NCBI RefSeq assembly: GCF_017357105.1 | Contig: NZ_CP071596.1 | Location: 1,736,001-1,800,000 of the forward strand | Source of the DNA: Natronosalvus caseinilyticus | GTDB lineage: Archaea > Halobacteriota > Halobacteria > Halobacteriales > Natrialbaceae | Reading direction: 5' to 3' | DNA: 64,000 nucleotides | In this document: positions 7,287 to 10,780 of the stretch, one piece after another | How positions within the stretch are numbered: the stretch's first letter is position 1 | How the letters are laid out: each line of letters opens with the position of its first letter | Program-made: the position numbers and the translations under genes | Notes under the pieces: generated by a model | What the model was told of the DNA's origin: nothing | The model's database searches: none | What the model saw: the letters and a program-made list of their open reading frames with translations, nothing else

Positions 7287-8526
7287 ATGTCGACACCAAA
7301 CGACACCGGCTCTGAGACCCCTCAGGGCGGTCGAGTTCTTCCAGGGCACGTTAGATTCTACTGACGAAATCGCAACCGCACGCGTTTTCGACACGACCCT
7401 GCGCGATGGCGAACAGTCCCCAGGCACCTCGTTCTCGTACGATGACAAGCGCGAGATTGCGCGAATCCTGGACGAAATGGAAACCCACGTCATCGAAGCA
7501 GGCTTCCCCGTCAACTCCGAGGCCGAGTTTGAAGCCGTCAGTGACATCGCGTCCTCGACGCGGACGACGACCTGCGGACTGGCCCGCGTCGTCGACAAAG
7601 ACGTCGAGGCGGCGCTGGATTCCGGCGTCGAGATGGTCCACGTCTTCGTCTCCACGAGTGACGTCCAGATCGAGGACTCGATGCACTCGAGTCGCGAGGC
7701 CGTCGTCGAGCGCGCCATCGACGCCGTCGAGCGCGTCACCGAGGCGGGCGCGATCTGCATGTTCTCGCCGATGGACGCCACCCGGACCGACGAGCCGTTC
7801 CTGCTCGAGGTCATCGAGGCCGTCACCGAGGCGGGAACCGACTGGATCAACGTCCCCGACACGTGCGGGGTCGCGACCCCGCGACGGTTCTACGACCTGA
7901 TCGAGACGGTCACCGATCACACCGACGCGCGCATCGACGTCCACACCCACGACGACTTCGGATTGGCGACGGCGAACGCGCTGGCGGGGATCGAGGCCGG
8001 CGCCGACCAGGCGCAGGTATCGGTCAACTCGATCGGCGAGCGCGCCGGCAACGCCGCCTACGAGGAGTTCGTGATGGCCGTCGAGTCGGTCTATCAGGCC
8101 GACACGGGCATCGACACGACGCGGATCACCGAACTCTCCCAGGTCGTCGCCGATCGAAGCGGCGTCCCGGTCCCCTCGAACAAGCCGGTCGTGGGCGCGA
8201 ACGCCTTCTCCCACGAGAGCGGTATCCACGCCGCCGGCGTCATCGAGAACGCCGACACCTTCGAACCCGGCGTCATGACCCCGGAGATGGTCGGCGCCCG
8301 GCGCCGACTCGTCCTGGGGAAACACACGGGAACCCACTCGGTCCGCGAACGACTGGTCGAGACGGGCTTCGACCCGACTGAGACTGAGGTACGTGCCGTG
8401 ACCCGCCGTGTCAAGGACTACGGCGCCGAGAAGCGTCGCGTCACCGTTTCGGATCTCGAGCGATTCGCCGAAGCGGAAGGCGTCGCTCGGCTCCCCGAGC
8501 GGGAGCGAGAGGAGGTGCAGGCGTAA
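7287..8526 (+). CDS. leuA: 2-isopropylmalate synthase family, frameshifted near its 5' end
   Basis: Condenses acetyl-CoA with 2-oxoisovalerate in the first leucine-specific step (the related citramalate synthase activity is possible). The body reads from FFQGTLDSTDEIATARVFDTTLRDGEQSPGTSF through HTHDDFGLATANALAG and SVNSIGERAGNAA to GKHTGTHSVRERL, an LeuA/HOMT core with about the first part of the C-terminal domain. That frame has no start codon upstream of ATG 7477, which would remove the catalytic DTTLRDGEQ loop. ATG 7287 (MSTPNDTGSETPQG) is in another frame, and removing one G near 7329-7330 joins the two as ...TPQGVEFFQGTL. Either an extra base in this sequence or a real frameshift. At about 412 residues it is shorter than full regulated LeuA. 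Confidence 0.88.
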
Positions 8527-8698
8527 CGATGCACCCTTCGGTTGCTTCGGCCGGCCAGCGTCGGCTGTCGCGGATCGACGTTCGATCGGATGGATCAGTC
8601 AGTCGCTCGAGCGCCGCCCGTGCCGACGTCGCCTCGAGTGGCAGCCGGCCCCCGTTCACGGACTCGAGCCCGAGCAACGTTTGCCAGCCGGGAAACGG

Positions 8699-8705
8699 TT
8701 ATATG
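8699..8705 (+). promoter_or_regulatory. TATA box of the ilvB leader
   Basis: TTATATG is centred about 29 bp before the ATG at 8731, preceded by a purine-rich GGGAAACGG that could serve as BRE. The spacing puts the transcript start at or beside ATG 8731, so the small leader ORF would be translated from the very 5' end of the ilv mRNA, about 220 nt before ilvB. Confidence 0.7.
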
Positions 8706-8730
8706 CCTCGAGGCGTCTACCAGTGTAGTA

Positions 8731-8811
8731 ATGACGACCCGCGCTTCCAGCTCGGCTCGCGGTGCCGACAGCGGCGCGGTCGCGACGCTCATTATTGTAG
8801 GGGCCGCCTAG
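8731..8811 (+). CDS. Putative ilvB leader peptide (26 aa) with Leu-Ile-Ile-Val control codons
   Basis: A 26-codon ORF, ATG 8731 to TAG 8809-8811, reading MTTRASSSARG...AVATLIIVGAA. It starts at the predicted transcript 5' end and lies upstream of ilvB. Codons 20-23 (8788-8799) are CTC ATT ATT GTA, i.e. Leu-Ile-Ile-Val, the end products of the downstream pathway; ATT and GTA are minor codons in this GC-rich genome. The Val codon abuts a perfect 6-bp hairpin. In bacteria, ivbL and ilvL leader peptides work this way; in this archaeon the role is an inference. No family match can be claimed for the peptide itself. Confidence 0.6.
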   Translation: MTTRASSSARGADSGAVATLIIVGAA

Positions 8812-8949
8812 CCCCTCACTTCACCCTCCCTGTCCCGACGTTGCACCGATTTCATAGCGACCAGCGACGCAGCACCCACAGTCCCCAGCGACCCCGAACG
8901 ATGACACGACAGCACACACGAAATTGCCGCCATCCGGCGGCAGGAGGGT
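8799..8949 (+). promoter_or_regulatory. Candidate attenuator/SD-sequestering structure of ilvB
   Basis: Seen directly: hairpin AGGGGC (8799-8804)/GCCCCT (8811-8816) starting at the last leader control codon; an alternative 5-bp pairing GCGGC (8771-8775)/GCCGC (8803-8807) that excludes it; ACCCTCC (8823-8829), exactly complementary to GGAGGGT (8943-8949), which is the ribosome-binding site of ilvB; and hairpin TGCCGCC (8925-8931)/GGCGGCA (8936-8942) ending next to that site. There is no T-run after a hairpin, so control of translation seems more likely than intrinsic termination. Function is inferred. Confidence 0.5.
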
Positions 8950-8953
8950 ATCG

Positions 8954-10780
8954 ATGAGTGAACGCGCGACACCGGTGACACCGCGGACGGAAGCGGATGC
9001 GACGGAAACCGAGCGCGAGCGAGAACACGACCCCGAAGCCACCGCCGACGCCTCGACCGAACCAGATTCGAACACCGACGCCTCGACGAAACCGGTCACG
9101 ACGGGCGCCGAATCCGTCATCCGCGCGCTCGAAACCGCGGGCGCCGAGTACGTCTTCGGCGTCCAGGGCGGGGCGATCATGCCCGTCTACGACGCGCTCT
9201 ACGATTCCGAGATTCGACACGTCACGATGGCCCACGAGCAGGGCGCTTCCCACGCCGCCGACGCCTACGGCATCGTCTCGGGCGACCCGGGCGTCTGCTT
9301 CGCGACCTCCGGACCCGGCGCGACGAACCTGGTGACGGGCATCGCCGACGCCGACATGGACTCGGACCCGATGATCGCGCTGACGGGCCAGGTGCCGACC
9401 GCGATGGTCGGCAACGACGCCTTCCAGGAGACAGACACCACGGGCGTCACGAAGCCCATCACGAAGGCCAACACGTTCTCGAGCGACCCCGACCGCGTCG
9501 GCGACGACGTCGGCGAGGCGTTCGCGCTCGCGGGCGCGGGTCGACCCGGCCCGACGCTGGTCGACCTGCCGAAGGACGTGACCCTGGGCGAAACCTCGAG
9601 CGAGCCGGGCCAGCCGCGGACGCCGGACACCTACGAGGTGCAAGAGCACGCCGACCCCGAGACGGTTCGACTGGCCGCCCGTCGCATCGAGCAGTCCTCG
9701 AAGCCGGTCTTGCTGCTGGGCGGTGGCGTCATCAAGGGCGACGCCACCGAGGCCGTCCGGGCGTTCGCGATCGAACACGAGATTCCGGTCGTGACGACGA
9801 TGCCCGGGCTCGGCGCGTTTCCCGAGGATCACGACCTCGCGATGGAAATGGCCGGGATGCACGGGACGGGGTTCGCCAACATGGCGATCACCCACTGCGA
9901 CACCTTGATCGGCGTCGGCACCCGGTTCGACGACCGGTTGACTGGTGGCATCGAGCACTTCGCGCCCGACGCGGAGGTCATCCACGTCGACATCGATCCA
10001 GCCGAGATCAGCAAGAACATCCACGCAGAGTATCCGCTCGTCGGCGACGCGGAAACGGTGATCGAGCAGTTGGCCGACGAGGTGACGGAATCCCCGCGAG
10101 CCACCAAGTGGCGCGCCCAGTGCCAGCAGTGGAAGTCCGAGTACTCGATGGCCTACCGGACGCCCGAGGACGAACCCGTCCAGCCGCCGTTCGTCGTCGA
10201 AGCGCTCGACGAGGCCACGAGCGACCGGGCGATCGTGACCACGGGCGTCGGCCAACACCAGATGTGGGCCTGCCAGTACTGGACGTTCACCGAACCCCGG
10301 ACCTGGGTCTCGAGCCACGGGCTGGGGACGATGGGCTACGGCCTGCCCGCCGCCGTCGGCGCGCGACTCGCCGCCGAAGACGACCAGGAGGTCGTCTGCT
10401 TCGAGGGCGACGGCTCGTTCCTGATGACGATTCAGGAGCTCGCCGTGGCCGTTCGCGAGAACATGGACATCACCGTCGTCGTGCTCAACAACGAGTACAT
10501 CGGCATGGTTCGCCAGTGGCAGGACGCCTTCTTCGAGGGCCGACACGCCGCCTCGGAGTACAACTGGTGTCCCGAGTTCGATACCCTCGCCGAGGCCTTT
10601 GGCGCGAAGGGATTCCGCATCGACGACTACGACGAGGTCGCCGACACGGTCGAGGCCGCGCTGGCCTACGACGGCCCCTCGGTGATCGACGCCCACGTCG
10701 ACCCGCGGGCGAACGTCTACCCGATGGTGCCGAGCGGCGGCGACAACGGACGGTTCGCGCTGTCGGAGGACCAGCTATGA
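8954..10780 (+). CDS. ilvB: Acetolactate (acetohydroxyacid) synthase large subunit
   Basis: 608 residues from ATG 8954 with GGAGGG five bases upstream; a TTG at 8924 in frame lies within the leader hairpin and is less likely. Makes 2-acetolactate and 2-aceto-2-hydroxybutyrate from pyruvate (and 2-oxobutyrate) with ThDP, Mg and FAD. Motifs: catalytic Glu in HEQGASHAADAYG, ThDP/Mg motif GDGSFLMTIQELAVAV...NN, and FDDRLTGG in the FAD domain. The first ~50 residues are an acidic, Thr-rich extension not needed by the family. The stop overlaps the next small ORF (ATGA). Confidence 0.96.
   Translation: MSERATPVTPRTEADATETEREREHDPEATADASTEPDSNTDASTKPVTTGAESVIRALETAGAEYVFGVQGGAIMPVYDALYDSEIRHVTMAHEQGASHAADAYGIVSGDPGVCFATSGPGATNLVTGIADADMDSDPMIALTGQVPTAMVGNDAFQETDTTGVTKPITKANTFSSDPDRVGDDVGEAFALAGAGRPGPTLVDLPKDVTLGETSSEPGQPRTPDTYEVQEHADPETVRLAARRIEQSSKPVLLLGGGVIKGDATEAVRAFAIEHEIPVVTTMPGLGAFPEDHDLAMEMAGMHGTGFANMAITHCDTLIGVGTRFDDRLTGGIEHFAPDAEVIHVDIDPAEISKNIHAEYPLVGDAETVIEQLADEVTESPRATKWRAQCQQWKSEYSMAYRTPEDEPVQPPFVVEALDEATSDRAIVTTGVGQHQMWACQYWTFTEPRTWVSSHGLGTMGYGLPAAVGARLAAEDDQEVVCFEGDGSFLMTIQELAVAVRENMDITVVVLNNEYIGMVRQWQDAFFEGRHAASEYNWCPEFDTLAEAFGAKGFRIDDYDEVADTVEAALAYDGPSVIDAHVDPRANVYPMVPSGGDNGRFALSEDQL

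Follow-up and report, generated by a model that had tools for sequence, protein, structure and literature searches.

A conserved leader peptide with isoleucine and valine codons upstream of haloarchaeal ilvB as a likely ribosome-mediated attenuator

Leader-peptide attenuation is a textbook mechanism of bacterial gene control. The IvbL and IlvL peptides of Escherichia coli are encoded by short leader ORFs which carry codons for the amino acids of the pathway, lie upstream of acetolactate synthase genes and adjoin an RNA hairpin. The PheM leader of the same bacterium controls the aminoacyl-tRNA synthetase operon pheST, and in tnaC and related factor-dependent leaders a ribosome stalled near the leader stop codon shields a downstream termination site; to our knowledge, archaea have no Rho. 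A three-hairpin attenuator is described for the ilvBNC operon of Corynebacterium glutamicum (PMC11857589), and amino-acid leader peptides control branched-chain genes in actinobacteria (PMC1262725). We found no report of archaeal leader-peptide attenuation, or of leaders before haloarchaeal ilvB, pheS or trpS, in the open-access literature; subscription papers and supplements lay outside this search, so the absence is unproven. Here we describe a leader peptide that precedes ilvB in haloarchaea, and we consider it likely to be part of a hairpin-gated, ribosome-mediated attenuator which senses isoleucine and valine charging and acts, most likely, on transcription.

The window analysed is a stretch of 64,000 nucleotides from Natronosalvus caseinilyticus. 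The preliminary description of this DNA had pointed to a short ORF with a run of branched-chain codons, placed before ilvB at the predicted start of the transcript, and the sequence agrees with it in all particulars. The ORF (8731-8811, forward strand) comprises 26 codons translated as MTTRASSSARGADSGAVATLIIVGAA, followed by the stop codon TAG, and codons 20-23 (8788-8799) are CTC ATT ATT GTA. The gap from the leader stop to the ATG of ilvB (8954) is 142 nt in the window, and the TATA box TTATAT (8699-8704, forward strand) lies 32 nt upstream of the leader ATG, which predicts a leaderless transcript. ATT and GTA had also been called minor codons, and indeed they make up 15.7% of the Ile codons and 7.4% of the Val codons in 634 predicted genes of this genome. 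NCBIfam profiles identified ilvB (8954-10780, forward strand), the gene for the large subunit of acetolactate synthase (TIGR00118, E 4e-209), as the first gene in the order ilvB-ilvN-ilvC-leuC-leuD; with all these genes confirmed, the operon serves the synthesis of Ile, Val and Leu.

The ilvB loci used for comparison were gathered from genome contigs and whole genomes: 140 were oriented, 136 of them carry the core described below, and 116 are distinct. The core lies within an open reading frame in all 116 distinct haloarchaeal loci, and in 101 of these an ATG upstream of the core follows a TATA-like element at a distance of 31-33 nt. The search for such TATA-ATG pairs left the reading frame free, and every one of the 101 linked ATGs shares the frame of the core. 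The 101 loci show 14 different ATG-core distances, all of them in frame, and thus the changes of length kept the frame; the 116 loci share ancestry and are therefore not independent trials. On the ilvB tree the length class changed at least 31 times, a figure that includes loci without an assignable start. Judged by sequence comparison, the conservation of the leader ORF is far beyond chance, and the ORF is very likely real and translated. From the TATA spacing we infer a leaderless mRNA that would start at the leader ATG.

Conservation and probable translation would also be expected of a small functional protein that happens to be encoded upstream of ilvB. However, the body of the leader is under weak constraint, with a dN/dS of ~0.84 in frame and ~1 in shifted frames, the length upstream of the core ranges from 15 to ~50 codons, and the GTA and GGG codons of the core are invariant at their synonymous sites. 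The nearly free drift of the body fits a leader and not a functional small protein, and on account of it we rejected the latter explanation, to which we give practically no probability. Loss of the ORF with the flanking DNA kept, which the preliminary description had named as evidence against a leader, was not seen: it is the body of the ORF that drifts, and the ORF itself persists.

The conserved core reads ATT GTA GGG GCN, followed by a stop codon and then CCCC. Its Val codon is GTA and its Gly codon is GGG in 116 of 116 loci; the core was located by searching for GTAGGGG, so the invariance of those six bases is partly imposed by the search, with only 4 of the 140 loci lacking a match. The codon before GTA was left free by the search and encodes Ile in 114 of the 116 loci, Val in one and Leu in one; among 12 ilvB loci read later, two (L396 and L397) carry Val at this place. 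On the ilvB tree of 93 loci this codon changed at least 11 times, 10 of the 11 changes being synonymous and one altering Ile to Val, and GTA did not change at all. The next codon further upstream changed 17 times, and 16 of these changes altered the amino acid. Such a contrast between adjacent codons indicates that selection acts on the amino acid, or on its tRNA, at the codon before GTA. The putative sensing codons in the window are ATT ATT GTA (Ile-Ile-Val; 8791-8799, forward strand), the last ATT being the position that is so rarely anything other than Ile. The Leu-Ile codons upstream of the core Ile-GTA are lineage-specific, and most Natrialbaceae read Ile-Arg-Ile-Val. Thus the Leu-Ile-Ile-Val cluster emphasised in the preliminary description is present in the window, but its conserved part is only Ile-Val(GTA) together with the hairpin.

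Directly after GTA, GGGG pairs with CCCC, usually with one more C-G pair. In the window this hairpin, GGGGC-CGCCTA-GCCCC, occupies 8800-8815 (forward strand), with the leader stop TAG (8809-8811) at the loop and 3' arm. The 5' arm starts at the nucleotide after GTA in 116 of 116 loci, the fifth stem pair is standard in 111 of the 116, and a sixth pair forms in 16 of the 20 loci whose stop codon leaves the stem-adjacent base free. The identity of the stop codon varies (TAG, TAA, TGA), and it lies in the hairpin loop or directly 3' of the hairpin, the latter in one clade of 10 loci and in L131. In the loci of this clade (L007, L015, L016, L027, L030, L031, L032, L044, L046 and L110) the loop stop is lost, the frame runs to a TAG just 3' of the hairpin, and the stem gains a sixth pair. 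Local folding gave the hairpin in the examples tried, with a shifted pairing in L131. Folding of the alignment, which covered the region near the hairpin, strongly supports only the GGGGC/GCCCC hairpin, and no conserved alternative antiterminator/terminator fold was found in that region. The invariant GGGG/CCCC pairs show no covariation; the support comes from the varying fifth and sixth pairs, from the varying loop and from the deep relative L136, whose degenerate yet recognisable core, GTA GGT GCT TAG, has GGGGC/GCCCC replaced by GGTGC/GCGCC and still folds. A second conserved block, GTTGCACCGATTTCATAGCGAC (8840-8861, forward strand), forms a weak hairpin in Natrialbaceae. No credible match to any of 4227 Rfam families was found in 8300-9300. 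The leader element is absent in three deep relatives within the order (L138-L140), where ilvB closely follows the upstream gene, and no comparable conserved leader was found at ilvB in 20 non-haloarchaeal Halobacteriota genomes, a weak test that listed only ORFs with at least four branched-chain residues in six.

One would argue that the GTAGGGG...CCCCTAC palindrome is a DNA operator which binds a transcription regulator, the ORF being incidental, and some lineages do have long near-perfect palindromes, e.g., ATTGTAGGGGC...GCCCCTACAAT in L125. However, an operator calls for a fixed spacing of half-sites independent of frame. The spacing between GGGG and CCCC varies from 5 to 8 nt, which is unusual for a protein dimer and is what an RNA loop would allow, and the site forms the in-frame end of an ORF linked to a TATA box, with the stop codon in or beside it. 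Additionally, Ile is kept through synonymous change, and ilvB and valS are the only places in this genome that match the pattern. Because of the variable spacing and the strict frame we rejected the operator, which we regard as very improbable.

The same GTA-GGG-GCN-stop-CCCC hairpin module is carried by the leaders of valS, whose peptides end in V-x-V-G-A-x before the stop (L284/L343, the valS of this genome, and L279, L281, L283, L286 and L332-L353). By their coordinates, the matches to the module pattern in 37 whole genomes belong to ilvB or valS; three (L358, L384 and L385), for which no valS coordinate was available beforehand, turned out to be valS on reading. When a stricter pattern was run on 195 genomes of the order it matched 102 times, with no genome having more than two matches, while the reversed control pattern matched about 7 times; all 20 matches sampled from this order-wide search belong to ilvB (12) or valS (8). 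The matches examined support well that the module is restricted to ilvB and valS, and very likely the ilvB leader is one of two module copies per genome in many haloarchaea. A second valS paralogue (L280, L340, L341) has a degenerate leader, GTC/GTT GGA GCC CCG TAG, without the GTAGGGG core.

Immediately before GTA, valS leaders have a codon for Phe, Val or Arg, and a hand count gave Ile in 0 of 21, compared to 114 of 116 at ilvB. The module of valS does without Ile, therefore it is not the hairpin that forces Ile but the downstream gene, and this contrast is the strongest evidence that the codons act as sensors. The conserved ends of the two kinds of leader, I-V-G-A at ilvB and V-G-A at valS, could also be read as an arrest peptide: the C-terminal (I)VGA in the exit tunnel would sense free valine or isoleucine, in a manner similar to TnaC, and not tRNA charging. 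We find this quite improbable. The GGGGC arm of the hairpin determines the G and A, the residue at -1 is Ile at ilvB but Phe, Val or Arg at valS, and the remainder of the peptide is hardly constrained (dN/dS ~0.84). Moreover, the pheS and trpS leaders described below have only the matching of codons in common with these leaders, and no arrest motif. The main proposal of the preliminary description, an amino-acid-matched leaderless peptide before ilvB, is thus supported by the frame and promoter spacing, by the synonymous maintenance of Ile and by the valS module without Ile. At the level of sequence, translation of the leader and sensing of Ile/Val by it can be regarded as well supported.

We propose that the leaderless mRNA would begin at the leader ATG and be translated immediately. 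With Ile-tRNA and Val-tRNA charged, the ribosome would pass ATT-GTA, end at the stop codon in the hairpin loop and leave; the GGGGC/GCCCC hairpin would then fold and the expression of ilvBNC-leuCD would drop, most likely because transcription terminates prematurely in the G-poor tract 3' of the hairpin. In a shortage of Ile or Val, the ribosome would stall at ATT or GTA and cover the 5' arm, a geometry for which the size of the ribosome footprint is the basis; the stalled ribosome would prevent folding of the hairpin and the operon would stay on. Since a stalled ribosome would open the hairpin and a finished one would let it fold, the hairpin would mark amino acid sufficiency and act as the OFF signal. 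The stalling, the direction of control and the transcriptional OFF step are what we infer here from the layout of the leader.

Depending on the locus, leader and ilvB are separated by 70 to 364 nt, a range that counts against the ilvB start being masked directly and favours a position-independent, transcriptional effect. A G-free pyrimidine/A tract (8816-8831, forward strand) adjoins the 3' end of the hairpin in the window and is a candidate site for termination. Among the loci the longest G-free run after the hairpin has a median of 15 nt versus 7 in control stretches, G makes up 3-6% of the first 12 nt after the hairpin, and T-runs of at least four follow it in 44 of 116 loci versus 5 of 116 control stretches. 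After the window hairpin no T-run of four or more was found, the longest being TTT. T-stretches are the main haloarchaeal termination motif and terminate transcription in Haloferax volcanii, where a hairpin motif terminated 59% of the transcripts in a reporter (PMC7237163). Furthermore, physical coupling of transcription and translation is described in haloarchaea (PMC8576121), and FttA is proposed to police such coupling (PMC11616081). Against an attenuator stand the lack of a strong T-stretch after the window hairpin, the lack of a conserved antiterminator fold and the one clade with the stop codon past the hairpin. Also the conservation of GTA could come partly from base pairing, a ribosome on the stop codon covers the hairpin as well, so that timing matters, and one invariant Ile and one Val sensing codon are short for a sensor.

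The main rival keeps the same leader and the same sensing and makes the OFF step translational: release at the leader stop would lower re-initiation at a second ORF and at ilvB, or the pyrimidine tract would mask GGAGGG. The second upstream ORF, MTRQHTRNCRHPAAGGYR with its stop codon (8901-8957, forward strand), overlaps the ilvB start as ATGA, and 63 of 65 loci from Natrialbaceae retain it; a translational component is therefore possible in this family, and termination-reinitiation from this ORF onto ilvB is probable. The Shine-Dalgarno-like GGAGGG (8943-8948, forward strand) lies within it, upstream of the ilvB ATG, and a study of Hfx. volcanii proposed that motifs of this type inside ORFs help re-initiation there (PMC3986360). 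The same ORF contains a TGCCGCC/GGCGGCA hairpin at 8925-8942. The minimum-energy structure of the leader region in the window does pair the pyrimidine tract with the GGAGGG region, but we do not rely on this long-range pairing because the whole-leader fold is no more stable than shuffled sequences (z -0.79). The wide range of the leader-ilvB gap also counts against translational control, outside Natrialbaceae the second ORF is often absent (present in 12 of 28), and the alignment fold gave no further conserved pairing in the region near the hairpin. We therefore see a translational OFF step as a real possibility, albeit an unlikely one, and prefer transcriptional attenuation.

Leaders with matching codons are found at other genes as well. 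At pheS most of 25 loci from several families share a conserved leader in which Phe codons cluster, as GFGFF or something close to it. Its stop codon is often in or beside a GC-rich inverted repeat (L144-L166; in L156, the pheS of this genome, the leader ATG lies near G000:C1:288173 on the minus strand). One trpS paralogue has a leader with Trp codons, W-R-W or a close variant (also AWR), with a conserved GCGGAC element next in the same frame (L192, the trpS of this genome, and L189, L190, L194, L196 and L197). The thrS loci (L294-L299) share a conserved leaderless ORF of 10-13 codons, M-V-G-V-x-F-T-G-P.., whose single Thr codon is always ACA and which is probably a leader with a matching codon; in several of them the start region GGTAGGTG can pair with CACCTACC past the stop. 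In the loci compared, no conserved leader was found at trpC and ileS, and none with clustered His codons at hisS. Upstream ORFs before pheS (HVO_2948) and the tryptophan-tRNA ligase gene (HVO_A0127) of Hfx. volcanii are given in Table 2 of Babski et al. (PMC4983044), in a passage that does not propose amino acid sensing for them.

The leuA frame (7333-8526) has no in-frame ATG, GTG or TTG upstream of the catalytic DTTLRDGEQ motif. A leaderless ATG at 7287 is the sole start linked to a TATA box and opens a different frame (7287-7364), so that leuA needs either a +1 shift, at or near CGA GTT CTT C, or a non-AUG start; in a first comparison the ATG is in the same other frame in 57 of 60 loci. Ribosomal slippage and a link to leucine were suggested earlier for leuA HVO_1510 (PMC8305020). 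We incline to the view that haloarchaea possess a general, genome-wide system of leaderless leader peptides, in which ribosome stalling would read the supply for ilvB (Ile/Val), valS, pheS, trpS and thrS, together with a leucine-linked frameshift into leuA. If true, such a system would be the archaeal equivalent of the attenuation and T-box control of bacteria, and at ilvB and valS its regulatory hairpin would incorporate the stop codon.

Comparison of the loci gives strong evidence that the translating ribosome may serve as an amino acid sensor in archaea, as it does in bacteria. If this is the case, a ribosome-gated RNA switch works with the archaeal RNA polymerase, with leaderless initiation and without Rho, and archaeal transcription-translation coupling becomes directly testable in Hfx. 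volcanii by means of defined media and reporter systems. The valS module and the pheS and trpS leaders suggest a regulatory layer that annotation misses because the ORFs are so short.

The ilvB leader is best described as a putative archaeal variant of bacterial leader-peptide attenuation without a conserved alternative fold. The features of the bacterial type that are found here are a short upstream ORF, matching codons and a hairpin adjoining the sensing codons; mutually exclusive antiterminator and terminator structures are not among them, as folding of the alignment supports one hairpin. The haloarchaeal leader is similar to IvbL (ilvB) and IlvL (ilvGMEDA) of E. coli in its matching codons, its acetolactate synthase target and the adjoining hairpin. 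It differs in a leaderless initiation predicted at the 5' ATG, in having one to three sensing codons and a stop codon in the loop, and in lacking a conserved alternative antiterminator fold and, in the window, a U-rich intrinsic terminator. Leader control of branched-chain genes would be shared with ilvBNC of C. glutamicum, which has three hairpins compared to the one strongly conserved in haloarchaea. The pheS (GFGFF) and valS (V-x-VGA) leaders of haloarchaea parallel PheM in design, in another domain of life and with another RNA element, and we claim no sequence relationship. A factor-dependent route similar to that of tnaC would need, in archaea, a factor such as FttA/aCPSF1. An archaeal parallel is a neighbouring branched-chain gene, leuA HVO_1510, with its proposed leucine-dependent translational event at an out-of-frame ATG (PMC8305020): there slippage into leuA itself is proposed, whereas a separate leader peptide stands before ilvB.
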